Source: a virus | Virus record (IMG/VR): IMGVR_UViG_3300044641_006207 | Span: 1 to 49,324 of that record | Direction: 5' to 3' (one strand) | Length of the DNA: 49,324 bases | In this document: positions 9,507 to 47,429 of the stretch, one piece after another | Layout: every line of letters starts with the position of its first letter | Numbering within the stretch: position 1 is the stretch's first letter | Program-made: the position numbers and the translations under genes | Notes under the pieces: model-generated | The model's database searches: none | What the model was told of the DNA's origin: nothing | The model's input: the letters and a program-made list of their open reading frames with translations, nothing else

Positions 9507-9746
9507 CTATTTGCGTAATGCGTATCTATCCACGTGCGCTTGGTGTAATATGCGTGTGATAAGTTCGATATTGTTGTTGTCATATATCACAACACTTTCT
9601 TCGCCTATCATTTTATAAATACAATCTTGTTCGTTATACACGGATAACACTTGCTTGTGTTGGTCTTGGACAATCTTATACATAACGCCGTCAACTCGAA
9701 TCGCACGTTCAAATGATTTGGTGAAAAAGATTTTTGCGTTGCCCAT
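9507..9746 (-). CDS. Hypothetical protein, 79 aa
   Basis: I do not recognise this protein. The ATG at 9746 sits 1 nt after the CobT-like gene and has AAAGGG upstream, so it belongs to the MoxR/CobT-like operon and may serve it. The body looks beta-rich (IFFTKSFERAIRVDGVMYKIV, then QVLSVYN, ESVVIYDNN), with a C-terminal helix (ELITRILHQAHVDRYALRK). It contains one cysteine. It might be an adaptor of the ATPase pair or an unrelated early protein. Confidence 0.7.
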   Translation of the reverse strand: MGNAKIFFTKSFERAIRVDGVMYKIVQDQHKQVLSVYNEQDCIYKMIGEESVVIYDNNNIELITRILHQAHVDRYALRK

Positions 9747-9747
9747 A

Positions 9748-11721
9748 TTATTTCATTGACCCTTTCATAACACTTGTGATTGTTTTGACAGCGTCGACAA
9801 CGTATTGGCGCATTTTTGCGTCTTTGAGAATAGCGTCGAAAGCGTTTTTACTTGCGTGTATTTGATGTAGTGCTTTGAAATAGTTGAATCTTTCTTCGTT
9901 ATGAGTGGGTTGCTTTTTTAACCAATTTTCAGCGAGTTGGGTTGCGTGGTCGTATCTAATTTGATATGCCATATCACGTCGACTCATATCCATATGACGT
10001 GCGAGTTTTTCGTCGATAACACACTTGTGTTTGAGTATTTTTTGGTCTTCGTATTTTAGGTATCCAATGAACGCAGTTTGATTAACGTATTGTTGGAACA
10101 ATTTGTTATCTCGTGTGAGTGATTGAATATCGCCGTCGGTAATAACAACGAATAGCGCTTTTTCTTTGGCGTATTTACGCATAACGTTGGCGAGATATGA
10201 AGCGTTAGTTGACATTGCCATATTGTATCGTGTGCCTACGACAGTCGAAGGAATACAAAAATCTTGCTTGTGTTTTTTGGCAAGTAAGTCGCCATAAATC
10301 CACCAGTCACAATCATCGAACGACTTTGCTAACGCATACGCAATCATAGAAAACACAGGCGAGAAAAAGTTGCCACCACCATACGTGGAAGAAGAAACGT
10401 CTTCGAAGATAACAACTTTGCGTAGGAACGAAGCGTCTTTACCTTTGCTGTAAAATACTTTCGGTTCGCTCTTGTTGGACATTGTTTCGACTAATCGTGA
10501 TACGTTGATTTTGGGCGATATATCGGATTTGAACGACTTGCGTTGCGCTTGTGTGATACCACCACGAATAGTCGTGCGTTGTTGCGTGATGAGTGGTATT
10601 TCTACGATAAACATATTCTTGAAGATTGGGTCGTCGTGAACAGACACACGTCGTTTTTCATTTAACGTGCTACTTAAATAATCTTGTTCGGCAACGACAG
10701 TTTCGATGAGTTCTTGCGCTTGTGCAATTTGCTTTTCTAATTGCTTGTTGAGTTCGTCTTCACGCTTTTCGGATTTTGCTTTTGCTTTGTCGTCTTGCTT
10801 GTTGTTGACTTTCTTGTCGTCGCCTTTGTTGTCGTTATCGTTGTTGTCGTCGTCTTTGTCGTCGTCTTTGTCGTCGTTGTTGTTGACGGGTTCGTCGCCA
10901 CCTTGGGTTTTATTTTCGCTTTTACCTTTGCCACGTTTTTTAGGTTTAGGTGGGTTGACAGGTGGTTGCGTTGTTGGTGGGAACATTAGTTTGTGTATTT
11001 CATAAAGCGTGTTGCTCAAATCAATCTCGATATTTTTGTCAGCAATTTCGAATCGACCAGTCGTTTTACTTTTGACAATCTTCGCTTGATTGTAAACAGC
11101 GATATAATGCTCACACAAATGAGCGATTGTTGCGTCAGGTGTTTTACTTGCGTATTTGCCTAAACGCCACGACATAATCTTGCCGTCATCTTGGATAATG
11201 GTTTTGAGTGGGTCAACAATATCGACGAGAAACGTATATTCACGCATTAAAATACGCTCAATACGTTCGTCTTCTATGACGTTCCATAACATATGAACTT
11301 GCTTTTCGTGTATTGTATGCGACGCAACACGTTGTTGTTTGATTTCTTCTTTGTCGGTGAGCGTAGGGTCAAGACCATATTTGTCGTCATACATTTTACG
11401 TAAAACTCTTTCACGTATCGTATCACGCACGTCGTTATGGGTGTATAAAATGTGAGCGAGTTCGTGATAGGCAACGGCATACACGTTAATACCTTTTGTG
11501 AGTTGCTGGACAATGCTATTCATAGCGATAGAAATGCGTTGCGTTTCGAAGTTCATATACGACGTGTCTTCGTATGAGTTGACTTGAACAGAAAACTTTT
11601 GCGCTTGTTCGCCATAATAACGTAGCAAGTATTTGCCAAAAATGTCTTGAAATAAAACTTCGACTAACTTGGGATTTTTGAGAAGTGTTTCGTTGATTTT
11701 TTGAGTAAGTGCTGTTGGCAT
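9748..11721 (-). CDS. CobT-like protein: HExxH metallopeptidase-like domain plus VWA domain
   Basis: This 657-aa protein has the CobT/VWA-peptidase layout. The N-terminal domain carries YHELAHILYTH (HExxH at 86-90, further His at 95) and WNVIEDERIE near 146-155, supplying a third acidic ligand. Residues ~250-330 form a Pro/Lys then Asp/Asn-rich linker. The C-terminal VWA domain has a MIDAS site: DVSSS (441-445, DxSxS), T497 and TDG (528-530). It pairs with the AAA+ ATPase 1 nt upstream, as CobT pairs with CobS in cobaltochelatase and as VWA proteins pair with MoxR ATPases. With no cobalamin genes nearby, a protein-remodelling or maturation role is likelier than cobalt insertion. The target is unknown. 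Confidence 0.85.
   Translation of the reverse strand: MPTALTQKINETLLKNPKLVEVLFQDIFGKYLLRYYGEQAQKFSVQVNSYEDTSYMNFETQRISIAMNSIVQQLTKGINVYAVAYHELAHILYTHNDVRDTIRERVLRKMYDDKYGLDPTLTDKEEIKQQRVASHTIHEKQVHMLWNVIEDERIERILMREYTFLVDIVDPLKTIIQDDGKIMSWRLGKYASKTPDATIAHLCEHYIAVYNQAKIVKSKTTGRFEIADKNIEIDLSNTLYEIHKLMFPPTTQPPVNPPKPKKRGKGKSENKTQGGDEPVNNNDDKDDDKDDDNNDNDNKGDDKKVNNKQDDKAKAKSEKREDELNKQLEKQIAQAQELIETVVAEQDYLSSTLNEKRRVSVHDDPIFKNMFIVEIPLITQQRTTIRGGITQAQRKSFKSDISPKINVSRLVETMSNKSEPKVFYSKGKDASFLRKVVIFEDVSSSTYGGGNFFSPVFSMIAYALAKSFDDCDWWIYGDLLAKKHKQDFCIPSTVVGTRYNMAMSTNASYLANVMRKYAKEKALFVVITDGDIQSLTRDNKLFQQYVNQTAFIGYLKYEDQKILKHKCVIDEKLARHMDMSRRDMAYQIRYDHATQLAENWLKKQPTHNEERFNYFKALHQIHASKNAFDAILKDAKMRQYVVDAVKTITSVMKGSMK
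10810..10875 (-). repeat. Asp/Asn/Lys-rich trinucleotide repeat in the CobT-like gene
   Basis: The plus strand shows runs of GTC and GTT triplets with interspersed TTT; on the coding strand these encode Asp, Asn and Lys (residues ~283-304). An 18-nt unit appears in near-perfect tandem. Acidic linkers between the N-terminal and VWA domains are also found in CobT. The tract is probably variable in length by replication slippage, always in whole codons. Confidence 0.8.
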
Positions 11722-11722
11722 A

Positions 11723-12742
11723 TTACTTGCCCTCCATCATTGTGGTGTATTCGCTTATGAGATTGTCAAACTCAGGTGATAGATTGATGACGGTTTGATA
11801 GTCAATGTTGGCGAATTCTAATTGCGCAACGATATAATCACGAAACGCTTGTGGCGATAAACCCAACATATTTTTGAGTTGTCGCACGTCATTATAGAAC
11901 GGATGAACTTGACCCAAATCTTTGAACATATCGTATATGCGTTTGAGTATGTTGATAAACGTTGCTGGAACACTTGTGCGCTTTTCGAGTTCTTCGTTTG
12001 ACAAGTCCTTGAAGAAAACTGGGAAAGCACGTGATTTGATTGCGTCGGGCATTGTCGATGTGCCAACATCTCGGTGGTTCATCGTTGCGATAAAGAAGCA
12101 GTTTGGGTTCTTGGCGTAAGTTTTTTCTTCGAAGTCAAACGAACCTTCAGTGTCATCGAGTATGGGTTGTTGCGCTTTTAACACGCTCATCGGCTGCGTA
12201 TTGATTTCGTCAATGATAATGATATAACGGCGTTTTGCGTCATCGGTGAGCATTTGAAAGAAGCGATTGAATAAGAACTTCCAAGCGCCATTGTCATCGG
12301 TTTTGGTGGTCTTGAATAGCGACATAACGGTCAAATCTTCGTGTGAGTTTATAACAATGAAATCGTCAATTTGACCACTATCTTTGAGCGATTGGGCAAG
12401 TTTACGAGCGTATGTTGTTTTGCCAGTCGACGGATTACCAAACCACAATTCGAACTTACGTAGATTACGATTTAGTTCGTTAGCAAATGGGTAGTGAGCG
12501 AAGCGATTAGGCATAACAACTTTGGGTTTGGGTGCTTCGACTGTGGGTTGTGGTGCTTCGACTGGGGTTGCTTCGATTGGCGCTGGTTGTGGGTTAGACG
12601 ACCACGAAGAAGACAAATTGGGAACTTTGCGCTTACGAACACGCTTGACGGGTGTAGAAACGACGGGTGTTTGAGTAGGCGCTGTCGGCGTGGACGCATT
12701 GTCCAAAGATTTAAGAATATCGGCGAGTGTAAGGTTAGGCAT
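11723..12742 (-). CDS. MoxR/CobS-type AAA+ ATPase
   Basis: This 339-aa AAA+ ATPase has Walker A GNPSTGKT (102-109), Walker B IIIIDE (174-179), the sensor Asn in ATMN (~222) and an arginine finger in IKSRAF (~238). The layout fits the MoxR/CobS clade that works with VWA partners. The N-terminal ~80 residues are Pro/Thr/Ala-rich with a basic patch (KRVRKRKV) and are probably a flexible tether. I start at the ATG at 12742 (MPNLTLADIL), with AAGAAGG upstream at a long spacing; a frame to 12835 adds residues with no ribosome site. The gene is followed 1 nt later by the CobT-like partner, so the two form one machine powered by ATP hydrolysis. Confidence 0.85.
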   Translation of the reverse strand: MPNLTLADILKSLDNASTPTAPTQTPVVSTPVKRVRKRKVPNLSSSWSSNPQPAPIEATPVEAPQPTVEAPKPKVVMPNRFAHYPFANELNRNLRKFELWFGNPSTGKTTYARKLAQSLKDSGQIDDFIVINSHEDLTVMSLFKTTKTDDNGAWKFLFNRFFQMLTDDAKRRYIIIIDEINTQPMSVLKAQQPILDDTEGSFDFEEKTYAKNPNCFFIATMNHRDVGTSTMPDAIKSRAFPVFFKDLSNEELEKRTSVPATFINILKRIYDMFKDLGQVHPFYNDVRQLKNMLGLSPQAFRDYIVAQLEFANIDYQTVINLSPEFDNLISEYTTMMEGK

Positions 12743-12940
12743 ACGGCTGTGAACCTTCTTTCTTTGTGCGTGGTTTTTCCACGTAGGTATAAAGATAACA
12801 ATGATAGGCAACACATAACGAGTGTCATACGCCACGTGTCGAGCGTGGTAAATCGACTAATACCCCTTTCAAGAGTAGCACCATAGTAGCATACTTACTT
12901 CGTAAGTCGTGTGCGCACACGTGCGTCACGCATACGTGCG
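12743..12940 (-). promoter_or_regulatory. Control region upstream of the MoxR/CobT-like operon
   Basis: This 198-base gap has no gene. On the minus strand it shows an extended -10, TGcTACTAT (hexamer 12888-12883), with the dyad ACTTAC-GAA-GTAAGT (12907-12893) ending 4 bp upstream. Next to it is a perfect 14-bp palindrome, CGTGTGCGCACACG (12908-12921), then TGCGT-C-ACGCA and two copies of ACGTGCG. There is no good -35, so activator-dependent or regulated initiation is likely. The leader to 12742 would be about 134 nt. Confidence 0.55.
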
Positions 12941-13081
12941 TTATAATTCAAAAATAAAAGTATGACCAAAATCTTGACGGCATTCTTTACATAAAACTCT
13001 TGGGTCAATGCTATCGCTTTTTTGACCACAATACGGACAATCACATTTTTTAATTGTCGGTTTTATATTTTTCTTATCCAT
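12941..13081 (-). CDS. Small zinc-ribbon protein, 46 aa
   Basis: The ATG at 13081 (MDKKNIKPTIKK) follows AAAGAAAGGGGG. Two cysteine pairs, CPYC and CKEC, about 20 residues apart make a zinc ribbon, and the rest is a basic N-terminus and a short C-terminal strand (FGHTFIFEL). Zinc ribbons of this size often bind nucleic acid or a host polymerase. It lies 1 nt before another zinc-ribbon gene, so the pair may be paralogous in fold though not in length. The frame to 13132 was rejected because its extra codons overlap the neighbour without a ribosome site. Confidence 0.7.
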   Translation of the reverse strand: MDKKNIKPTIKKCDCPYCGQKSDSIDPRVLCKECRQDFGHTFIFEL

Positions 13082-34655: not shown

Positions 34656-37600
34656 ATGGCATTAAAACTTTATGGAACATCTGAACAAGCGTTTAGAGCG
34701 AAGATTCTTAATGAAGCAAATTACGCTTTTAAACAACTTGCTTTTTCAAAACAAGACGAGTTTAGAACTTTGTTTGAAGACTTTATTAAATCAGTTAAAG
34801 ACCCTTTAACAAATACTTTAAATATAACTTTTGACACTTTAGGTAGTTTAGTTAGTGGAACTTTAAATGGTGTAAGTGATTTTTTTACAAGCGCTGAAGT
34901 TATGTTTAAACAATTTGGTCAAGATGTTGCTTATGACGTTGATAAAGATGGTAGAGAAACAATCAACGACGTTGGTTATGCTTTAGCAAATCAATTTTTA
35001 AGTGCAACAGAAGGTATCACACTTTGGGCTGGTTCTGCTTTTGCCGAAACAGGAAAGTTTTTTTTAGGAACACAATTCTCTGATGGTTTTTATGGAGAAG
35101 GTGGAGTGAGTGAATCATTAAAAAATTGGTTCTCCCAACAAAAAGCAGATTTAAGAAGACAAGAACTTGGTTCAAATTTTTTTAAAACAAATTACACCCA
35201 AGAAGAAATTGAAGCGAATCAAGACCTTATCAATAACTCTTTTTCACAAAGTTTTTTAAACGATATTAAAACTATCTTTGAAAAAAGCGCTGCAAGTAGA
35301 CAAATGTTTGAAAATATGTTTGCAGTCGAAGAAGTATCAAATATGATTCAAAACAATGAGGCTGGTGCTGGTTTTGCACAATTCACAAGAGGTGTTGCAC
35401 AAAGTATTGGTAGAATGCTTCCAGCGATTGCTTTAGCAACAATGACAGGAAAAATAACTTCTGGTTTAACGACAGAATCAGCAAAAATAATTGGTTCTTT
35501 AGTTAAGGTTATTTCTAATTTGTATTTTGCTGGTAGTGTTTTTGGTCAATCAATGGAAGATGCAATTAACAATGGCGCTAACTATGATGATGCTTTAACT
35601 TATGCTTATGGAAGTGCTTTAAGTGAAATGGTAATTGAAAACGTAAGTGGTGTTGTCATTGGCGAAGGCATAACTGTTAATTCGTTTGTTGATTTATTTA
35701 AACAAATGTTAAGTGAAGCAGGTGAAGAAGCAGTCGCAGAAATTGGAACAGTTGGATTTAAAAGAGCCGCGTTGGGTGAAAAGGCATTAACAAAAGCAGA
35801 AAAAGAAGAAAATGCTGGTGGCTTTTTATCTCGTGTATTTATGAGCGCTTTAAGTGGCGCTGTTTCTGGTGGTCTTCTTGGAACTGGAAATGTTCTTCGT
35901 GCGTATTACACTCCCGAAGGACGCGCTGAATATGCTCAAAAAATTCTTCAACAAAACATTGAAAAAGTGGGTGCTAAACAATTTGCTGAATTAGCAGCAC
36001 CAAAAGTGCAACAAACATTAGATGATTTACAAGGAACTAAACTAACACAAGAACAAAAAGATGACATATTCTTTGGAAGTCCAGCGTTATCAAAGGTTAT
36101 CACAAGAACTGAAGGCGCAGATGGAAAAGTTTTTTTTGAGTTAAGCAAAGCTGGAGAACGTTTAATGCAAGGTGAGATTGGTGCTTTCCAAGGCAAAAAA
36201 TCTATCTCAGCAAAAGAATATGCAATGTCTAATGATTTATATCTTGAAGAACTTACAGATTCATTTGACGCTGAGGACGCGCAAGGTAATCCAATTAAAG
36301 TTAAAGTTAAAATCCTTGAAAGACAAGAAGTTTCTAAATTAGACCAAGCAACACAACAAAAAATTCAAGAAACACTTGATGACTTTGACAACGTTATTTT
36401 TGTTGAAATGGACGAAGGTTATAACTCATATGTAGACCCTGAAACAGGTGCTGTATATATTAACATCAATGCTGCTGATAAAGCAGATGGTTTTAGAGCA
36501 TTATACGCACACGAAATTCACGACTATATTAGAAGTTTAAGAGAACAAGGTAAACTTGAACCACAAGCAGCGAAAGCATATGATAGATTTATCAAGTTAT
36601 TAACGAATGAAAAAAGTCGTGAAGCGCTTTTAGATAAGATGCCAAAAGAAATGGCTGCTATTATTCGTCAAGTTACTGAAAACTATTCACCAGAAGACCA
36701 ACCAAGAGAATTTGCTTCTTTCTTCATTCAAAAGATTTTAGCAGCAAAAGATGGTGGCATTAAGGGTTTAGAAACATTATTAGCAGCAAAAGAAGGTGGT
36801 TTTTTAAACTTCTTACGTATCTTTACCAACGAAACAATTCTTTCTCGCTTGATTAAACAATTTGGTAAATCACAAGACTTAAAGACATTATTAGAAGGAT
36901 TAGATAGAGCGTTTGGTGCTGCAATTGCACAATCAAAAGAAGTGTTAACAAAGAAAGATTCTATTGTGTTTGCTAATCAATATTTACAAAACTTATTAGT
37001 GATGGGCGACCAAGAGTTAGAAGCACAACCACAAGCAGTAAAACTTTCTTTCAGTTTAGCGCAAAAGTATCCAATCTTAAACGCAATGGTTGAAGATTCA
37101 CAAGATGCTGTGGATTTCTTAAAAGATGAGTTTACAGAAGTGTTTCAACGTATTTTCTTAGCACACGAACAACTTCGAATTTCAGAAGATATGAAAGAAG
37201 ATGACGAAGCAACAGCAAAACAAATTAGAAAAATTATTAAAGCAATTCAAAATCCAAAAGAAAACTACTTGTTAAATGGTTTTGTCAATGAAAGTATTTT
37301 ATATTTTGGTCAAGATAAGATTGTTTCTGTTTTAGAAAAAATGGCATCAATGATTGAAAAAGGTGCTTATAATGGTTATTTTGAAACTGCTTTAGAGCAA
37401 ATGAAAGATGAGATTTTAGATGCTCTTCAAGTCAAAGTATTTGATTTAGAATCTAAAGAAAGAAAAGCAGGTTTTATTTTTAGTTCTCGTAATGTTTATT
37501 TTGCAAAAGAAGATTTTGAACCATTCTTAAAGCAAAACGAAAACAGAATTTATCAACCAAGATTTAACTTCGTTCATAACACAATGGAAATAACGCATAT

Positions 37601-40600
37601 CTTTAGAACTGAAAAAACTAATTCTTCAATGGCTGATATGTTTTTTAGAAAAACTAATATTGGTGGAAACATTGTAGATGAAAATCTAAGAATAAAAATA
37701 AAGAACCCACTTATCCTTGGTTCTGTTTTAAATCAACAAGCATTGTCTTTCTTACTTAATAATAACTTTCTTGGCGCACAAAGTTTTTCAATCAATAATT
37801 ATGGCGCTTTAGATTCAACTCTTGGTTTCTTTACAGATGCACTTCGTCCAAGTGTAGATTTCGCACCAGAGGGTGACGATTTCCAAATTGGAGAAGACCC
37901 AGAGTATATTGTCAAAATTATTTTAAATCCAAGTGTTATTTCTCAACAAGACACAATTGTTGGTAAAGATGATTTATACGCACCAACAAGACAATTTGAC
38001 CACGTTCTATCTCAAACTTATAAATTAAAATATCAACAAGCAGGTGAAAAAAACAACCTTTCTGATGATATGGGGTTGTTCTCTTATATGGACGTTTTTG
38101 CCAAGACAATTGATTACGTCATTCAAAATAGAGTTCTTTATGGGTTACCAGCAGATGTTAAAAACGTTACAGAAAGAAACTTTAACCAAGTCAAGATGTC
38201 GCAATTGATTCCAGATGATTCCAAATACCTAAATATGACATTAGACAGAATATCGATGTCAACATCATTAGCGAGAAAAAGAGCAAACGAACTTGCTTTA
38301 AAGAAAGATATTAACGATGCCAACTACTTCTACAACACACCTAACGTCGATAGTATTATTGAAAACCTTGCTAACAGTATTGAAACTATAAAAACAGCAA
38401 TCTTGGGTGGCGAACTTGACGCAGATGAATTCGTTGCAATCATTAGAGAGTTAATCTATCAAGGCATTCATTACTTAGGAGATTCTAATCAAAACACAGC
38501 ATTTGAAGGTAGACAAGAGTTGCAAAAGAAATATCAAAAGTTAAAAAAAGAATTTAACGTTCTTGCTTATACGTATCACTTTTACAATTATCAAACTACT
38601 TATATTGCCGAAGGTAGAACTCAAATATACCCAGAAAACATCGAAGTCATTCACTTAACAAGATTTAAAAACAAAAAACCATCAAACGCCAACTACGAAA
38701 AGACAATTGAATGGGCTAAACAAAACAGAATTAAAGTTATCGAAACTGTTGACGTTCAAGGCGCAGAAGACGCTTCTTTTGACCATACAAGAGTTCCAAT
38801 GCGTCAAACCAACGACTTTTTATTAGAACGTAGCAAAACAAAACGTGTCTTCTTATCCAAGGCTGGTTATAAGATTGATGGTGGTCAAGACTTATCAAGG
38901 GATTATCGCGAAGCAATGACTGATTTAGAAGGCAAATTGGTTAATACAAAAACTGCTGTTGCCCAAGCGTTTGATTCTTATTCTCCAGAAATTTATCTAA
39001 GGGCGTATGGTGTTCCACAAAAAGATAGAACAAACCAACAACTAATTTCTCTTGCAAAAGGTATTAAAAATACGCTTACTCAAGTTATATCAAGAGAACT
39101 CGAACAAATGGAAAAAGAAGAAATTCTTGAGTCAACTGATGTATTTTTAGCAATTGATACTTTTTTACAATTGGAATTTTCACCAAACTTATCATCAATC
39201 ACAAACAAACTAAAACAAGATGTGGCGACTTATGGTGTTTTTGAAAAAGCAGTAAAACAAACTATTACAAATAACCTACAAGTATTAAGAGATGGTGGTA
39301 TATCATTAGAGGATTATGTATACAATAGAAGAATTAACCAAATATCGCATAGAGGAGATGTTCTTCGCATAGTAGCACGTATTTATAAAGCATATACAGA
39401 AGCATTTGTAAGTGGAGTTTCTACAGTTCCAAACTATCAATCAGTTGTTCAAAATATTTTACCAAACGAATTGGAAAACATTAAACAATTTTATGATGCT
39501 TTTTTCTCTGACGACCGAAAAGTTAGAAGAGCAATAGGTATGTATAAATCTAACGAATTAAGTCAAACAACTTTACAGTTTGATTATGTTCTCAAAAATA
39601 TGATGCCTGATAAGTTTGAAGAATTAAATTCAAAAATATTTACCACAAACCCAGTGTTCAAAGATAACGCCAAAGAAGGTTTAATGAAGGATAACGAAGC
39701 ATTAAGCAGAATGTTATATGAAAAAGGATATGATTTTGGTTTTAGTTATAAAAAACACGCATTTGCATTTAAGACAAGTGATTTTAACGTTGGAGAAAAC
39801 GAAGCAATCGCTAATATTAGATATGTTAATGTTTCTGGTTTTGCACCTGCATTTTCATATACAGTCTATGTAAAAAATGGCGATAGATTAGAATATGCAA
39901 CCAATAGAATGGTTTATGGCGCTTACGTTACTGTCGAAGATAACGCATTAACTTATATTATCCCAAACCCAATGATAATTGAATTTGGCACTTCTTATGA
40001 CAACGCTATCAATCTTTTGAGTCAAAATAAAATATACGCCCAAAGCGCAAGTGTTTCGCCATTAGCGTCTGAAATAAGCACAGTAACAAGATATGCACAC
40101 AATAGACCAATTGGTGATTTGGGTTGGATAAAAGTGAGATTTTATGTTGACCCAGTTTCTTTAAATAGAGGAAATAACATTTTACTTCCAAACGACGGCT
40201 GGTTTGCTGACAGACAACAAACAACCAGTGGTGTATATTTAGCAGTATCAACTTACACAAATGAAAAACAAAAACCAGTTTCTGAAAGACAAGGTTCTGT
40301 TTTAGCGACCACAGAAGACCAAGTAAGAAAATATGATATGAAACTTGCTACGTTGGCTTTGTCCAATATTGTTATTTCTAATGAATTTAAGGATTCTTCT
40401 TTTGCTGTTGACGCAGATGATTTTGGCACTTACGTTAATATGAATGCAATTGAAGGATTTGTAAAGTTAGTCGCATCAACTGGAATGAATGAAACAAAAA
40501 AAGTTCAAACAATACAAGAAATCAAACAACAAATAGAAAATTCTTTAGACCCAGAATATAGAACATCTTATTTTGCCTTAGTTGATTATTTTTATGAAGT

Positions 40601-43600
40601 GTATTCTGATGTATTTAATGAGTTTAAAACAAACGATGCAGCTGAAAATAGAGCGCTTGTTTCAGCTTTTGGTTCTCTTGTTCAAGCATATTATGAACAA
40701 AATAAAGGAAACTATAAAGTAATGGCTGGACTTATGACAGCGTTTACAAATAAAAACTATCAAATAACAAGAGAAATAAATCAAAAGTATGGTAGCAAAA
40801 TAGCAAATATTGCAAAGGTTATTGATAAACTTCCTTTTAGAACCACTAATACAAATGAAGTAAGATATAACGCTTTAGATGTTCAAGATATTAAAGTGAT
40901 GCAAGTTGATTTAATGGCAAGAGAAGAAAACATTGAAGCGATACAAAATCACCCAGATGTGAAAAAGTTAATTGAAAATGCGAAACAAAAAGGTATTCAA
41001 GTTGTTTTAGTTAATCAATCAAAGGGATACCAAAGTATTAGGGATTCAGCTGACAAGAATACAACAACACTTGAAAAAGACATTGTTCCAGGAAATATAA
41101 ATAAAGACGGAACGCTTAGAAACTTACTATCATCAGACTTAGATTATTTAGATAGAATGCAATCAATTATGGGTTTACAAAACGTTTCAAAGCAAATGGA
41201 AGCGAGTGGCAAAGCGGCTGCAACTCGATATTTAGTTAATACAAAACTAATGTTTAGCAAGAGTCAACGTATTAAAAATGCACGTCAAAAGAAATCGCGT
41301 GAAGTAATGGAACAAGGAAAAGGTAGAATTGTTGAACAAAGCATTGTTCCTTCAACTTTCCAAGACCCAAAATCAGAAGCGCCACAAACACAAGTTAAGT
41401 TTGATACGTCATTATCTAAATTAGATGTGAAGAGTAATCTTTATAAGGTTTTAGTTAGAAACGTAAAGACGTTAAAAATGTTGCTTGAGTTCCAAAAAGA
41501 TAAAAACTTTAAGAAGCAATATCCAGCAGAATCAGCTGTTATCAGTCGCGCAATTACAGATTTAAATAGACAAAAGGCACGTTTAGAAAATCTATTGGGT
41601 GTCAAAGAACCTATTTCTCCATATGACCCAAACCTTGAACAAGATAAAGAAAATACAGAAGTTGAAGGTTTAAGAGAAGCGTTAGCAGAATATCGCAAAG
41701 ACATTTCTGATTTGTATAAAGCGAAAGCGCAAACCAATGCTGTTATGACAAGAATCGAAAGCGTTTTAGTTCAAGCAATCGATAAACTTGACAAGGAAGC
41801 AAACACATCTAAAGAAGCAATCAACCCACAAGGAGAAGTCGCTGTAAAACCAACCACAGCATTAGAAATAGAAGATGTGGCAAAAGACTTAGCGCAACAA
41901 CCAGCATATAAACATTATCTCCATTTATTAAGTGGTTTAAAGCAAGTTAATAAGTTGTTAGATTCAAGTTTTGCTTCAATGGATAGCAATATTAGACAAG
42001 CATTAGGAAAGTTTAAACTTGCCTTAGAAAAAGAAATCTCTCGTATGTTAAACGCTTCTGGTATTAGATTAAAAGACCCACTTAATACAAACATTAGCGC
42101 ATTAGAAAAAGCAGACCCATATTTTACCGAAGAACAAATTAAATCAATTCAAAAGTCTATGTTTGATATGACTTCTTCTGACATTAAAAACAACTACACT
42201 CTTTTACTTGAAAAAAGACAAAAATTCACCAGTATGTTTGAAAAGATGTCAAACGAATTAGAAGGTTTGTCTGAAACAGCATTACAATTGGCACAAGAAA
42301 ATGCGACTATCACAGTTGAACAAGAAACTAAGCAAATAGAAGAAGAACAAAAAGTAATTGACGGACCGATGGTTGAACGTAAATTAGTCAAGGGTGAATT
42401 AGCGTATGTTTTGAGAAAGTTAGTTGATTCAAGAGAAAGAGCGCTTTTTGCTCAACTTGATAATTCCAAAACTCCAGAAGAACAAGCGACAATCAACAAA
42501 TTATTAGGTGAACTTAGAATATTACGTAGAACGTTAAAGAAAATTGAAGTTAAACTTTCAGACGATGTGTTCAAGAGTAATAAAGATACTATCAGCAAAA
42601 TTAGAAAAGACTTTGAAAACACCAAGAGTCTTGATTTATTTATGCAAGTTTACGGTGATTTGTTGAAGACCAAAGAAACTGCAGCTGTTTCAAATGAAAA
42701 GACAGCAAAAGCACGTGAGGTTGCTAAACAAGAAAAAGCAGCGAAAGAACCATACAAACAAAAATACAACGGTCCTGTATATGTCACGATTGATGATTTA
42801 AACTTTAGTCCAGGTATCAACTCTGTTCTTGGAAAGATTATTTTTACCAAACCCAAAGCGTTATCAAAGGGTAAAACTATCTTAGTAAAACCTGCTGGTC
42901 AAACCACTGTTTATAAACCAAACACAAGAAAACAACAAGACCAAATCAATGGTCAAGTTTATGTCGTTGAAAAAGCAAGAACTGCACTTATTAAAGCAAT
43001 CAAAGCATTAGAATCTAACAAAACAAAAACTATAGCAGACTTAAAGAGATTACAAGAAATTGTAGAAAATAGAAAAAAAGATTTAGAAAATGCGGAAAAG
43101 AAATTAGAAAAAATCAAAAGAGAATTGGATATTGTTGAATCTATCGAACAAACTCCAGCAATCACAAGAACTGTTGGTCAAAAGATTTATGTAAAGCAAG
43201 GTGTTCAAATTGAAATACCGAACCTAAAGATAACTAAGTATTTTTTCAATCTAATTAAAGCATTTGATTATATTAACGACTTGATTCATACAGAAGTGCT
43301 AAAACAAAAGAAAGAAGGGAAACTGCCAGAAAATGCTCAACCAGTAACCCCGATTGAAACGCCAACAGCAGCATCTACAAAAGAAATTATGCCATTACAA
43401 CCACTATTAAATAACTTTGCAGTGCCAAATAAACCACAACAAGAAGCACCTGTTTTACCAACTCAAAAACCAGCACAAATGTGGATACCAACAGAAAACG
43501 TTACGGTTGTTTTTGGCGAACAAGCATACACACTAACTCCACAAGAAGTTAAAGACAGAATCGCTAAAAATGATTGGAACTTCTCAAGTGAAGAACAATA

Positions 43601-46600
43601 TATTCAATATCAAAAGTTAGTCCTACAAACAATGGCAGAACAAGCACAAAAGAAAGCACAAGACGCTAAAATGCAACAAGCAGTTGACGCACAAACCATA
43701 CAACCAACCTTGGTTGGAAATCAAAACCTACCAGCACTTGCTCAAGGTATTAACTTCTTTAAACAAGCACAAGTTCAAGCAACAATTAACCAACCAAACC
43801 AGTATGAATTAAACGAAGCACGTTGGCAAACAGTTATCCCAGCAATTGAAGAAAGATTACAAAACAGCAAGAGTAAAGACGACCAACGATTATACAGTAT
43901 CTTTTTACGCCTAAAACAAATCATAATGGGTTATAGAACAGACAATCGTATGTATAACCATATGTCGATGGCTGTTGCAAAAGTTGTGATTGAAGAATTT
44001 GATAAGTTTGCACGTTTATCATCAAAGGGTAAGGTCTATATTCCAAGTAATGCTGACTTACAAAACGTTATTGATAGAGTTAATGGCGCTATATTTGCTG
44101 TTTTAGAATACATTGACACCAATTTACTTGTTAAAGTTAATGTGAGTCCAGAAAACCCAAAAGGTTATTTATACTGGAAAGGTTCGTATTGGTATTTTAG
44201 AGGAATGAAAGACGTTAAAGTTTGGGATAAAACTCAAACAGATGCCTTTAACAACGACTCTCACGGTAATGCTTATCGTCGTTTAATGACTGCGCTTTTC
44301 AACTTTAATAGCAAAGGTTTTGGAATGTTAGAGTTAATCTCTGCTCTTGAAGATTTCGATAAATCCACAGCAGTAGCCCCAGTTGTAGATATGGCTATTG
44401 ATGGTCAAGCAGCGAGAACAGCTGAAACCACTGTTGAACAATGGGTAAGTGATGCTAAAACAAACGAAGAAATCAATGCTGGTGCAAACTTTGAAATAAA
44501 ACCAGCGATTGCTGCTGTATTAGACCCATATACGATTGCAGAAATTGTCGGTCAATTTGATGAAAAATCGTGGGCAATGACGTTGATGAATAAGATTGTT
44601 CAAGCACAAGAACGTGGTTATGAAGTTGACAGAGTGTTTGAAGAAGTGTTTCCAGAAGAATGGCAAAAGCAAAACCAACCCAATCTAATAGAATTAGAAA
44701 AGAACACTAAACCAATCGCTAACCTTGGTGGAACTTCAGTTCCAATGTCGCAAATTATGTATTTAAGAAATATGCTTTTACGTGAAATTGTTCGTAATAG
44801 AATGATTGATATTGGAGTTATAAAAGGAGAAAAGACGCACCACTTTGACAATGGCAATAAAGTGGATATTTTAGCGATTACAGAAATTAAAGAAAAGAAA
44901 CAAAGAAACAAGGTTGTTGCTACAATTGTCGACCAAAACGCTTTATTACAAGAATTAGACTCTATTATTAACCAAGATTCATTTGCTAAATCCTATAACG
45001 AAAAGGTCTATGAATTTATGCGTAGGTCTTACCCACTTATAAACGAAAGATTCAAAGAACTTCAAGGTGCTAACTTGGTTAACGATGGTGAAACAATTCA
45101 AAAAGCAATTCCAACAATGAGTCAAACTCAATTGCAAAAATTAAAAGACATCTTACCACAAGGTATGCAAACACAAGAAGCAGCAAACCTATATATCCCA
45201 ATCTTATTAACGAGTGGTTCATACTTTAAAGCACAAAAGTTAAACTTCAAAGACATCTTAGATTTAGGTGTGTTTGATGGTATGGTGAGCAACTTAACTG
45301 ATACCAATGGTATTGTTTCTGTAGAAAGTATTACAAACGTATTAACAACATATGAAAAAGAAGTTAAAAACTACTATGGTTTCCATCGTGTAGCAAGAGA
45401 TTTAAACTTGATTTTAAATACAGCGATGAAAGACGAAGAAAGTGGTCAAACAGTTTTCTTAGAAAGATTATTACCAAAATGGGCAGTAGAGTATTTCCAA
45501 CGAGTGATTATGGACGCTGCTGGATATGGACAAGTTGAATCTGTCGGTAAGTGGTTGCCTTTAATTAGAAGAAACTTCTATACATCAGCGATTGGTCTTA
45601 ACATCAAGGTTGTTATCACTCAATTCGCTTCGTTTTTAAACTTATGGAACATTTATGGTCAAAGCGACGTAACGTTCCTTGGTAGAATGATTAAAAACCT
45701 TGCAGCACAAGCAGCGCCAAGTCAAAAAGTAATATTAGAAGAAATGGCGAAAAACAACTTACACTATTGGAATAGAAGTAAGGGTGGAACATTTGAAATT
45801 GGTGAAGCAACCCAAGAAGGTATGAAGGCAAAGAGCATTATAGAAACATTAAGAGAGTTTTCTATGAAGGGTATTACGCTAACCGATAATATGATTAACA
45901 AAGCGTTCTACCTAACATTACTTGAAAGCGTAAATCCAGATACCAATCAAAACTATACCCCAGAAGAAGCAAATAAAGTTTTAACAATGGGTATATTAAG
46001 AACTCAAAGCACCAAAGCAGCAATTGGTAAAGCAGAAATTTTAAGAAGCAAGAATGAACTTGTTAGAATTATGGTCAAGTTCTTAGGCGAACCATTAAAG
46101 ACGATTACTCAAGTATATTCTTCTGGTAAAAACATTGAACTCATTCAAAAACTTAAAAAGAATCAAAATAGAATTGAAAACAATGTGAACGCAAGAATCG
46201 CTGTTCAACAAGTAAAAGTTGACCAAGCGAAAGCAAAATTATTAGGTCTTCAATCTGTAGAAAATAGTCAAACTTTTGCAACTGAATCAGAAGAGTTCCA
46301 ACAAACCACAAGAAGTGAAATTGAACGTGCGAAGAGAGAATTACAAGAAGCACAAGAAAGATTAAAGTTAATTCAAGATAGTGGAAAGAGAACACTTGAA
46401 CGTGTTTCAAGAGTTATCGCAAGTGAACGTAAGGTTAGAAGATTGGGTCAAGGACGTATTACAGCGATGATTACTACTATTAACTTCTTGGCATTACTTG
46501 GATTTGGTTTTGATATGGTCAAGAGTGGTGGTGGCGAAAGAGATAAAGAACGCGATGAAGAATTATGGGCATATATGATGAAGAAACTTGGTGGTCGTTA

Positions 46601-47429
46601 TATGGACGAAATTATGGGTATGATTCCATTTGCTCGTGATGTATACGGCGCATTCAAAGGTTATGACTTTGGTTCTATTGGTGAATTCCAAAGCGTTAAT
46701 GCTGTCACTGCTCAGCTTGGAAATATTTTTAGAGCCATCGCTGAAGGTGAAAACATCAATTGGAACAGAACTGTATATAACTTGGCAGTTGGCGTTGGCA
46801 ACTTATTAGGTGTCCCAGTCAAGAGTATCGAAGGATTATTTACGACACCATTATATTACTTCAATGAACCAGCGTTCTATCAATACAATAACTTTATTGG
46901 TGGTCAAGATAGAGATAATATCGAATTAGCACAAGCAATTAAAGAAGATGACTTAGCAATGATTTCTGTTATCGTTGATAGAAAGATTCAAAAGAGAAAC
47001 ATTAAGATTCACGTTGATGTTAAGAACGAAATCAAGGCGTTAATTAGAGAAGGTTTCGATATTAGCATTGTTGGTATCCCAGACAAAGTTACTGAAGATG
47101 GTGTAGAAAGAAAACTTACAGCAGAAGAAAAAGCAGACTTTGCTGAAGTGTATTCCAAAGCAGACTCTATTGTTAGAAAGTTATTAACAAGCGCTCAATA
47201 TAGAAGATTAACTGGCAAATACAAAGCAAGATTGATTCAAGCAGTCTATAACTATTATTATAAGTATGCCAAGCAAGATGTATTAGGTATCGACACATTA
47301 TCAGAAGACCTAACGTTTACTTCGTTAAATGAAGCATATACATACTTCTTAGGTAGAGTAGACGCATATAGAAAGCAACAAGTAAAGGACGCAGATAGAA
47401 ACGTCCCAACCATATCACTTCTTGATTAG
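34656..47429 (+). CDS. Giant multidomain internal virion / polyvalent-type protein, 4257 aa
   Basis: One open frame of 12.8 kb. Residues ~240-420 include Gly/Ala-rich amphipathic or membrane-like segments (ALSGAVSGGLLGTGNVL). Around 560-700 is a metallopeptidase-like domain with AHEIHDY (H619, E620) and a downstream Glu in REFASFF (E685), but Asp replaces the second His of HExxH. Residues ~1768-1872 hold a compact domain (SASVSPLASEISTVTRY, then GDLGWIKVRFYVDP) of a kind seen in phage large polyvalent proteins. Long coiled-coils run ~2200-2900, then a Pro/Gln linker (~2900-3030). The last ~700 residues resemble ejection-protein C-termini with a hydrophobic segment (MITTINFLALLGFGFDMV). No cysteine occurs. 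It is probably carried in the head and injected. Confidence 0.8.
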   Translation: MALKLYGTSEQAFRAKILNEANYAFKQLAFSKQDEFRTLFEDFIKSVKDPLTNTLNITFDTLGSLVSGTLNGVSDFFTSAEVMFKQFGQDVAYDVDKDGRETINDVGYALANQFLSATEGITLWAGSAFAETGKFFLGTQFSDGFYGEGGVSESLKNWFSQQKADLRRQELGSNFFKTNYTQEEIEANQDLINNSFSQSFLNDIKTIFEKSAASRQMFENMFAVEEVSNMIQNNEAGAGFAQFTRGVAQSIGRMLPAIALATMTGKITSGLTTESAKIIGSLVKVISNLYFAGSVFGQSMEDAINNGANYDDALTYAYGSALSEMVIENVSGVVIGEGITVNSFVDLFKQMLSEAGEEAVAEIGTVGFKRAALGEKALTKAEKEENAGGFLSRVFMSALSGAVSGGLLGTGNVLRAYYTPEGRAEYAQKILQQNIEKVGAKQFAELAAPKVQQTLDDLQGTKLTQEQKDDIFFGSPALSKVITRTEGADGKVFFELSKAGERLMQGEIGAFQGKKSISAKEYAMSNDLYLEELTDSFDAEDAQGNPIKVKVKILERQEVSKLDQATQQKIQETLDDFDNVIFVEMDEGYNSYVDPETGAVYININAADKADGFRALYAHEIHDYIRSLREQGKLEPQAAKAYDRFIKLLTNEKSREALLDKMPKEMAAIIRQVTENYSPEDQPREFASFFIQKILAAKDGGIKGLETLLAAKEGGFLNFLRIFTNETILSRLIKQFGKSQDLKTLLEGLDRAFGAAIAQSKEVLTKKDSIVFANQYLQNLLVMGDQELEAQPQAVKLSFSLAQKYPILNAMVEDSQDAVDFLKDEFTEVFQRIFLAHEQLRISEDMKEDDEATAKQIRKIIKAIQNPKENYLLNGFVNESILYFGQDKIVSVLEKMASMIEKGAYNGYFETALEQMKDEILDALQVKVFDLESKERKAGFIFSSRNVYFAKEDFEPFLKQNENRIYQPRFNFVHNTMEITHIFRTEKTNSSMADMFFRKTNIGGNIVDENLRIKIKNPLILGSVLNQQALSFLLNNNFLGAQSFSINNYGALDSTLGFFTDALRPSVDFAPEGDDFQIGEDPEYIVKIILNPSVISQQDTIVGKDDLYAPTRQFDHVLSQTYKLKYQQAGEKNNLSDDMGLFSYMDVFAKTIDYVIQNRVLYGLPADVKNVTERNFNQVKMSQLIPDDSKYLNMTLDRISMSTSLARKRANELALKKDINDANYFYNTPNVDSIIENLANSIETIKTAILGGELDADEFVAIIRELIYQGIHYLGDSNQNTAFEGRQELQKKYQKLKKEFNVLAYTYHFYNYQTTYIAEGRTQIYPENIEVIHLTRFKNKKPSNANYEKTIEWAKQNRIKVIETVDVQGAEDASFDHTRVPMRQTNDFLLERSKTKRVFLSKAGYKIDGGQDLSRDYREAMTDLEGKLVNTKTAVAQAFDSYSPEIYLRAYGVPQKDRTNQQLISLAKGIKNTLTQVISRELEQMEKEEILESTDVFLAIDTFLQLEFSPNLSSITNKLKQDVATYGVFEKAVKQTITNNLQVLRDGGISLEDYVYNRRINQISHRGDVLRIVARIYKAYTEAFVSGVSTVPNYQSVVQNILPNELENIKQFYDAFFSDDRKVRRAIGMYKSNELSQTTLQFDYVLKNMMPDKFEELNSKIFTTNPVFKDNAKEGLMKDNEALSRMLYEKGYDFGFSYKKHAFAFKTSDFNVGENEAIANIRYVNVSGFAPAFSYTVYVKNGDRLEYATNRMVYGAYVTVEDNALTYIIPNPMIIEFGTSYDNAINLLSQNKIYAQSASVSPLASEISTVTRYAHNRPIGDLGWIKVRFYVDPVSLNRGNNILLPNDGWFADRQQTTSGVYLAVSTYTNEKQKPVSERQGSVLATTEDQVRKYDMKLATLALSNIVISNEFKDSSFAVDADDFGTYVNMNAIEGFVKLVASTGMNETKKVQTIQEIKQQIENSLDPEYRTSYFALVDYFYEVYSDVFNEFKTNDAAENRALVSAFGSLVQAYYEQNKGNYKVMAGLMTAFTNKNYQITREINQKYGSKIANIAKVIDKLPFRTTNTNEVRYNALDVQDIKVMQVDLMAREENIEAIQNHPDVKKLIENAKQKGIQVVLVNQSKGYQSIRDSADKNTTTLEKDIVPGNINKDGTLRNLLSSDLDYLDRMQSIMGLQNVSKQMEASGKAAATRYLVNTKLMFSKSQRIKNARQKKSREVMEQGKGRIVEQSIVPSTFQDPKSEAPQTQVKFDTSLSKLDVKSNLYKVLVRNVKTLKMLLEFQKDKNFKKQYPAESAVISRAITDLNRQKARLENLLGVKEPISPYDPNLEQDKENTEVEGLREALAEYRKDISDLYKAKAQTNAVMTRIESVLVQAIDKLDKEANTSKEAINPQGEVAVKPTTALEIEDVAKDLAQQPAYKHYLHLLSGLKQVNKLLDSSFASMDSNIRQALGKFKLALEKEISRMLNASGIRLKDPLNTNISALEKADPYFTEEQIKSIQKSMFDMTSSDIKNNYTLLLEKRQKFTSMFEKMSNELEGLSETALQLAQENATITVEQETKQIEEEQKVIDGPMVERKLVKGELAYVLRKLVDSRERALFAQLDNSKTPEEQATINKLLGELRILRRTLKKIEVKLSDDVFKSNKDTISKIRKDFENTKSLDLFMQVYGDLLKTKETAAVSNEKTAKAREVAKQEKAAKEPYKQKYNGPVYVTIDDLNFSPGINSVLGKIIFTKPKALSKGKTILVKPAGQTTVYKPNTRKQQDQINGQVYVVEKARTALIKAIKALESNKTKTIADLKRLQEIVENRKKDLENAEKKLEKIKRELDIVESIEQTPAITRTVGQKIYVKQGVQIEIPNLKITKYFFNLIKAFDYINDLIHTEVLKQKKEGKLPENAQPVTPIETPTAASTKEIMPLQPLLNNFAVPNKPQQEAPVLPTQKPAQMWIPTENVTVVFGEQAYTLTPQEVKDRIAKNDWNFSSEEQYIQYQKLVLQTMAEQAQKKAQDAKMQQAVDAQTIQPTLVGNQNLPALAQGINFFKQAQVQATINQPNQYELNEARWQTVIPAIEERLQNSKSKDDQRLYSIFLRLKQIIMGYRTDNRMYNHMSMAVAKVVIEEFDKFARLSSKGKVYIPSNADLQNVIDRVNGAIFAVLEYIDTNLLVKVNVSPENPKGYLYWKGSYWYFRGMKDVKVWDKTQTDAFNNDSHGNAYRRLMTALFNFNSKGFGMLELISALEDFDKSTAVAPVVDMAIDGQAARTAETTVEQWVSDAKTNEEINAGANFEIKPAIAAVLDPYTIAEIVGQFDEKSWAMTLMNKIVQAQERGYEVDRVFEEVFPEEWQKQNQPNLIELEKNTKPIANLGGTSVPMSQIMYLRNMLLREIVRNRMIDIGVIKGEKTHHFDNGNKVDILAITEIKEKKQRNKVVATIVDQNALLQELDSIINQDSFAKSYNEKVYEFMRRSYPLINERFKELQGANLVNDGETIQKAIPTMSQTQLQKLKDILPQGMQTQEAANLYIPILLTSGSYFKAQKLNFKDILDLGVFDGMVSNLTDTNGIVSVESITNVLTTYEKEVKNYYGFHRVARDLNLILNTAMKDEESGQTVFLERLLPKWAVEYFQRVIMDAAGYGQVESVGKWLPLIRRNFYTSAIGLNIKVVITQFASFLNLWNIYGQSDVTFLGRMIKNLAAQAAPSQKVILEEMAKNNLHYWNRSKGGTFEIGEATQEGMKAKSIIETLREFSMKGITLTDNMINKAFYLTLLESVNPDTNQNYTPEEANKVLTMGILRTQSTKAAIGKAEILRSKNELVRIMVKFLGEPLKTITQVYSSGKNIELIQKLKKNQNRIENNVNARIAVQQVKVDQAKAKLLGLQSVENSQTFATESEEFQQTTRSEIERAKRELQEAQERLKLIQDSGKRTLERVSRVIASERKVRRLGQGRITAMITTINFLALLGFGFDMVKSGGGERDKERDEELWAYMMKKLGGRYMDEIMGMIPFARDVYGAFKGYDFGSIGEFQSVNAVTAQLGNIFRAIAEGENINWNRTVYNLAVGVGNLLGVPVKSIEGLFTTPLYYFNEPAFYQYNNFIGGQDRDNIELAQAIKEDDLAMISVIVDRKIQKRNIKIHVDVKNEIKALIREGFDISIVGIPDKVTEDGVERKLTAEEKADFAEVYSKADSIVRKLLTSAQYRRLTGKYKARLIQAVYNYYYKYAKQDVLGIDTLSEDLTFTSLNEAYTYFLGRVDAYRKQQVKDADRNVPTISLLD

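Follow-up and report, generated by a model that had tools for sequence, protein, structure and literature searches.

A phage gene pair at 9748 to 12742, on the minus strand of the IMG/VR record that was analysed as a whole (the window; 49,324 bases, linear, possibly a fragment), encodes an AAA+ ATPase and a partner protein in which an HExxH motif, an acidic linker and a VWA/MIDAS domain follow each other. The two reading frames lie 1 nt apart, and both were found where the original prediction from the sequence had placed them. The pair very probably belongs, as a strongly diverged member, to the CobS/CobT-like type known from phages and plasmids. In our main reading, to which we assign a probability of about 0.55 for the mechanism as a whole, a MoxR-class AAA+ hexamer works with a VWA/MIDAS partner that carries a minigluzincin-like zinc-peptidase head, and the pair is better explained as a machine that remodels or cuts proteins than as a vitamin gene. 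The domain order, an apparently intact and conserved zinc site, the MIDAS and the linkage of the two genes are supported by sequence comparison. Motifs and profiles bore out the assignment of a MoxR/CobS-type ATPase and of a VWA partner with a metallopeptidase-like N-domain. The architecture of a MoxR-VWA-like machine was correctly recognised, but it is also found outside this phage: a wide distribution has been described for the viral cobST cluster (PMC8651126), and Iyer and colleagues reported jumbo phages in which a MoxR ATPase accompanies a vWA protein with a metallopeptidase fused to its N-terminus (PMC7824862). The window pair adds a new and very divergent member to an architecture that is already known.

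The gene pair in the window

The ATPase gene (11723..12742, minus strand; 339 aa) was classified as CobS/MoxR-type from its reading frame, a match to Pfam AAA_5 (8.6e-11) and profile-profile comparison. The reading frame opens at a GTG at 12835; the ATG at 12742 was preferred as start, with AGAAGG about 11 nt upstream. Translation and a six-phage alignment place Walker A (GNPSTGKT, aa 102-109) at 12416..12439 and Walker B (IIIIDE, aa 174-179) at 12206..12223, both on the minus strand, and the invariant residues among the six phages include G102, G107, K108, T109, E179, N222 and R238. The protein thus has the features of the CobS/MoxR class, namely Walker A and B, a sensor Asn and an Arg finger. 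Against viral CobS it reached an hhalign probability of 97.8 in profile-profile comparison (controls 0.3 or less); phrog_249 was reached only at an E-value of 0.043. A role in defence was considered and rejected, the only matches being weak AAA-type ones to mad8 and TRIP13.

The partner gene (9748..11721, minus strand; 657 aa), which has GGAGGG directly ahead of its ATG, encodes a CobT-like protein with a minigluzincin-like N-domain, an acidic linker and a VWA/MIDAS domain. All of its motifs are given here by their positions on the minus strand. HELAH (aa 86-90; 11452..11466) is the predicted zinc-binding and catalytic motif. The alignment places EDERIER at aa 150-156 (11254..11274); its E150, within a helix of aa 124-161, is the predicted third zinc ligand. 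An acidic, low-complexity linker of about aa 256-345 (10687..10956) is apparent from the translation and from low pLDDT values. The MIDAS sequence DVSSS (aa 441-445; 10387..10401) and a second MIDAS segment, TDG (aa 528-530; 10132..10140), were both located by alignment. No Pfam, PHROG or NCBIfam match of the partner rose above cut-off. Recognition failed with the PHROGs of the viral CobS/CobT-like pair (249, with 1576, 5298 and 17276) and with Pfam CobT/CobT_C, which reflects a limit of the libraries and not the biology; PF06213 was not matched and TIGR01651 was not reached.

A 79-aa reading frame (9507..9746, minus strand) starts 1 nt after the stop codon of the partner and is a possible member of the operon. 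Its proposed role as a third component gained no support, as Pfam, PHROG, NCBIfam and profile comparison yielded no relative. A control region of the pair's own, also part of the original prediction, could not be substantiated: 16 promoter-like sites were counted against 16.8 expected. Just upstream of the ATPase gene, the stretch 12895-12945 (minus strand) is GC-rich and by eye contains repeated CGCACGT/ACGTGTGCG elements, possibly an operator.

Relatives in phages and plasmids

Nucleotide and strict protein searches in phages and pattern searches of viral and genome contigs returned no relatives of either window protein. Relaxed tblastn searches with the ATPase and the N-domain as queries picked up Bacteroides phages, Gordonia phages and faecal phages, in which the ATPase gene adjoins an HExxH-VWA gene. 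Chaining through these first relatives reached the viral CobT of Roseobacter phage CRP-810, Rhizobium phage RHph_Y2_11 and Pseudomonas phage hairong, as well as SSU5-type phage-plasmids. Examples of the viral CobS/CobT-like pair are thus found in RHph_Y2_11, CRP-810, Gordonia phage Woes and the phage-plasmid SSU5. A phage CobT protein also matched 1,872 plasmid records, among which 851 are predicted to be conjugative; some of the matches may not be full-length relatives, and conjugative plasmids may commonly carry the pair as well. Matches from Ruminococcus and Heliusvirales (L003, L004) look like McrB/McrC and were dropped.

The window has in common with the viral pairs the pairing of the genes and the order of HExxH, ED..IE, acidic linker and MIDAS. 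It differs from them in sequence, at 13-21% identity, in the spacing between HExxH and ED (about 60 residues in the window versus about 30 in viral CobT) and in the MIDAS, which reads DVSSS in the window and DxSGS in viral CobT. When six phage partners with 16-19% identity to the window protein were aligned, D52, H86, E87, H90, E150, D151, D441, S443, S445, D529 and G530 proved invariant; the same holds for M1 and for E329, which lies in the linker and is probably invariant by chance. In a larger alignment of 46 proteins, which includes the window protein and in which identity to it is about 10-18%, only nine columns are invariant, namely H86, E87, H90, D151, D441, S443, S445, D529 and G530. 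The residues of HExxH and MIDAS are therefore conserved among homologues, as the original prediction demanded. Overall, identity to the window protein is about 10-21% among the homologues, too low to take a shared function for granted.

Membership was assessed with a viral CobT profile of 50 viral representatives, obtained by clustering at 60% identity and with the window left out. The window N-domain scored 28.9 bits against this profile, compared with 2.2 bits or less for 50 shuffles each of the N- and C-domains. The reversed full-length partner scored 17 bits, presumably through its low-complexity linker, so that the N-domain score by itself carries the membership call. Profile-profile comparison of the N-domain gave a probability of 96 (controls 9.4 or less). 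The VWA region reached a weak hhalign score of 26 against the viral profile (controls 13-16; probability 5.6), and the motif alignment together with a low-confidence model suggests a weak VWA homology of the window protein.

Structure models

The AlphaFold2 model of the N-domain had a mean pLDDT of 80 and a pTM of 0.76. In Foldseek its nearest solved folds were mostly minigluzincins, namely selecase (probability 0.89), jannalysin (0.66) and abylysin (0.44), each an individually weak match with an E-value of 0.29 or worse. Motifs and model agree on HExxH and the downstream Glu, even though the matches to zincin-like folds are weak. Minigluzincins resemble the N-domain model in having an HExxH helix and then a Glu-bearing helix; unlike the window partner, they are stand-alone small peptidase zymogens.

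The model of the full-length partner (mean pLDDT 61) was poorer than that of the N-domain. Its best solved match was NorD of the NorQD complex (probability 1.00, E 4e-3), and its best viral matches were phage VWFA proteins (1e-5 to 6e-5). Like the window genes, NorQ/NorD (PDB 9qhd, 9qhe) is a MoxR-VWA pair with an N-domain and a disordered linker. It matures nitric oxide reductase, and the viral sequence profile matches NorD in the VWA region only.

Two further candidates were set aside. The DUF2201 metallopeptidase-VWA family (PF13203) was discarded, its DUF2201_N model not matching the window. A match of the N-domain profile A10 to AcrIIA26 (PDB 9zq6_B; E 6e-5) probably arose by chance, since it spans the ED..IE segment only and the Acr was reported as a novel fold.

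The zinc site in viral CobT and in the chelatase

Homologues were gathered with patterns based on the VWA region and on a motif located between the MIDAS segments, and not with HExxH, so that the conservation of HExxH does not stem from search selection. Among the viral representatives, 47 of 50 have His at both HExxH positions, and the Glu of ED..IE is present in 48. A bona fide CobT set of 28 alphaproteobacterial proteins, collected in a TIGR01651 search and with loci all above its cut-off, presents a different picture: none has His at either HExxH position (28/28), where RGxADxxALR is found instead, and 26 of them have the second Glu, corresponding to E150. Still, the alignment of the solved cobaltochelatase CobT extends over the entire viral profile (E 1e-84), and it shows the same replacement of HExxH. 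The aerobic cobaltochelatase CobT (TIGR01651; PDB 9uka, 21vt, 21vu) accordingly shares with the viral profile full-length homology, the second Glu and the MIDAS, but it lacks a peptidase site and has CobN as partner, whereas the window protein carries HELAH.

HExxH occurs in 10 of 36 genome representatives. CobT-like proteins without HExxH from beta- and gammaproteobacteria (L034, L056, L098 and similar) fall well short of the cobaltochelatase cut-off, and CobN is missing from several of the genomes that encode them. Magnetospirillum molischianum (L023, L208) holds a true cobaltochelatase CobT and, beside its own ATPase, an HExxH-type CobT-like protein, hence neither kind replaces the other there.

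These data bear on the proposal that the viral genes are auxiliary metabolic genes whose CobS and CobT join host CobN and raise cobalamin synthesis (PMC8651126). The full-length match to the solved chelatase subunit agrees with it, as do the grouping of the window ATPase with viral CobS and the presence of CobN in some hosts (18 of 41 bacterial genomes). The absence of cobalamin genes, stated for the window in the original prediction, nevertheless looks like a rule, given that CobN was found in none of the 29 related viral records searched. CobN is also missing from 9 of the 12 bacterial genomes with HExxH-type copies, and the coexistence of both CobT kinds in Magnetospirillum and the location of the pair in replication modules do not fit the proposal either. 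An apparently intact zinc site that is absent from true CobT, the lack of CobN in the viral records and the proximity to DNA polymerase described below together speak against a vitamin B12 gene, and we regard this explanation as very unlikely.

The pair could also be a pure chaperone, with an N-domain of structural function whose HExxH helix binds metal or nothing, so that targets are remodelled without being cut, as by NorD and CobT. Cellular CobT functions without HExxH, and the viral nickie/hairong lineage has lost HExxH and kept the pair, which indicates that peptidase activity is not always required. On the other hand, the invariance of the HExxH residues and of D151 among 46 such divergent proteins suggests a catalytic or zinc role, which makes a chaperone without peptidase function rather unlikely.

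Gene linkage and genomic context

The two genes travel together, as the original prediction had required. In 48 of the 50 viral representatives the partner gene has a CobS-type ATPase gene no further than 1.6 kb away, usually within 150 nt, and the genes are adjacent in the six phages first compared. In every one of the 20 records in which a DNA polymerase was detected, its gene is found 2.4-7.6 kb from the pair, with 22% expected at random. Many of these records come from a single group of related 100-kb elements and cannot be counted as 20 independent cases, and the proximity to replication genes appears to be a tendency in a few lineages. All 15 records in which the terminase match was usable have TerL 15-55 kb away from the pair, each record being counted as a circle. 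In Hardycor1 the AAA/vWA pair sits in a replication/accessory module. The neighbourhood of replication genes, where tested, is a further point that the window shares with the viral CobS/CobT-like pair, and a lack of CobN, judged from the related records, may be another.

In the window, the leftward block that holds the pair also encodes a DNA methylase, a primase/helicase of the VapE type, a PD-(D/E)XK exonuclease and an annealing protein of the Sak type. From 15.9 kb onwards the opposite strand carries terminase, portal and long structural-looking genes. The longest reading frame (34656-47429, plus strand; 4257 aa) takes about a quarter of the record and has no Pfam or PHROG match at E 0.01. 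Terminases 65-86% identical to that of the window were present on three short viral contigs (L011-L013), which end before the region of the pair, and a primase-based search for relatives of the window phage found none.

For jumbo phages, a function in virion assembly or maturation was put forward, in which the pair folds and proteolytically processes structural proteins (PMC7824862). The group 2.2 MoxR/metallopeptidase-vWA system of that study, likened here by its description, has the same architecture and pairing as the window genes; the paper does not name CobT or CobS, and its assignment to virion assembly draws on the tail chaperone of Acidianus two-tailed virus as an analogue. The identical domain architecture, the precedent of a MoxR-VWA system in virus tail development and the 1313-aa and 4257-aa proteins of the window, which might need processing, are in line with such a function. 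The gene context disfavours the action on the virion that the original prediction had also considered: in relatives the pair adjoins DNA polymerase and is 15 kb or more from TerL, in Hardycor1 and in the window it belongs to replication-type blocks, and the window terminase and portal are on the other strand. Polymerase proximity and distance from the terminase speak, more weakly than the evidence on the vitamin hypothesis, against virion assembly, which we consider unlikely. N4 gp24/gp25 was considered as a parallel and set aside; gp25 is annotated as an HNH endonuclease.

Proposed mechanism and implications

The evidence favours our main reading, in which the pair is predicted to be a machine that uses ATP to remodel or cleave its target during the replication or takeover phase. 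The NorQD structures show a finger of the VWA domain in the pore of the ATPase ring and the N-domain on the side of the ring, and ATP hydrolysis was proposed to twist and stretch the linker (PMC13036017). By analogy, the ATPase ring of the phage pair would bind the VWA domain, and ATP hydrolysis would twist or stretch the linker that joins the VWA to the N-domain, with the ring pulling on it. The MIDAS may dock a target protein complex, from which the zinc head beside the ring would clip or grip an exposed segment. As target we envisage a host or phage protein complex that is encountered while the genome replicates or the host is taken over, presumably no corrin ring and probably not the virion.

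On a wider and more tentative view, to which we give somewhat less than even odds, phage 'cobST' in general is an ATP-dependent metallopeptidase-VWA machine of mobile elements for replication or takeover, of which the window pair would be among the most divergent members, and cellular CobT is a relative with a decayed peptidase site. The contribution of the present comparison would be the link between viral 'CobT' and the jumbo-phage peptidase-VWA proteins together with the contrast of the zinc site to cellular CobT, both drawn at the sequence level. In the literature that was searched, no paper joined viral cobST with the jumbo-phage MoxR/peptidase-VWA system or reported the difference in the zinc site; such papers may exist.

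CobS and CobT have repeatedly been counted among viral auxiliary metabolic genes. If the zinc-peptidase site of viral CobT works, the peptidase annotation of cyanophage cobT, regarded as 'mistaken', may be correct after all, and a vitamin B12 function is probably the wrong explanation for such phages. The contrast between viral and cellular CobT makes the function of this much-cited phage pair testable by one point mutation, the exchange of the HExxH Glu to Ala, which would separate three published or plausible functions.
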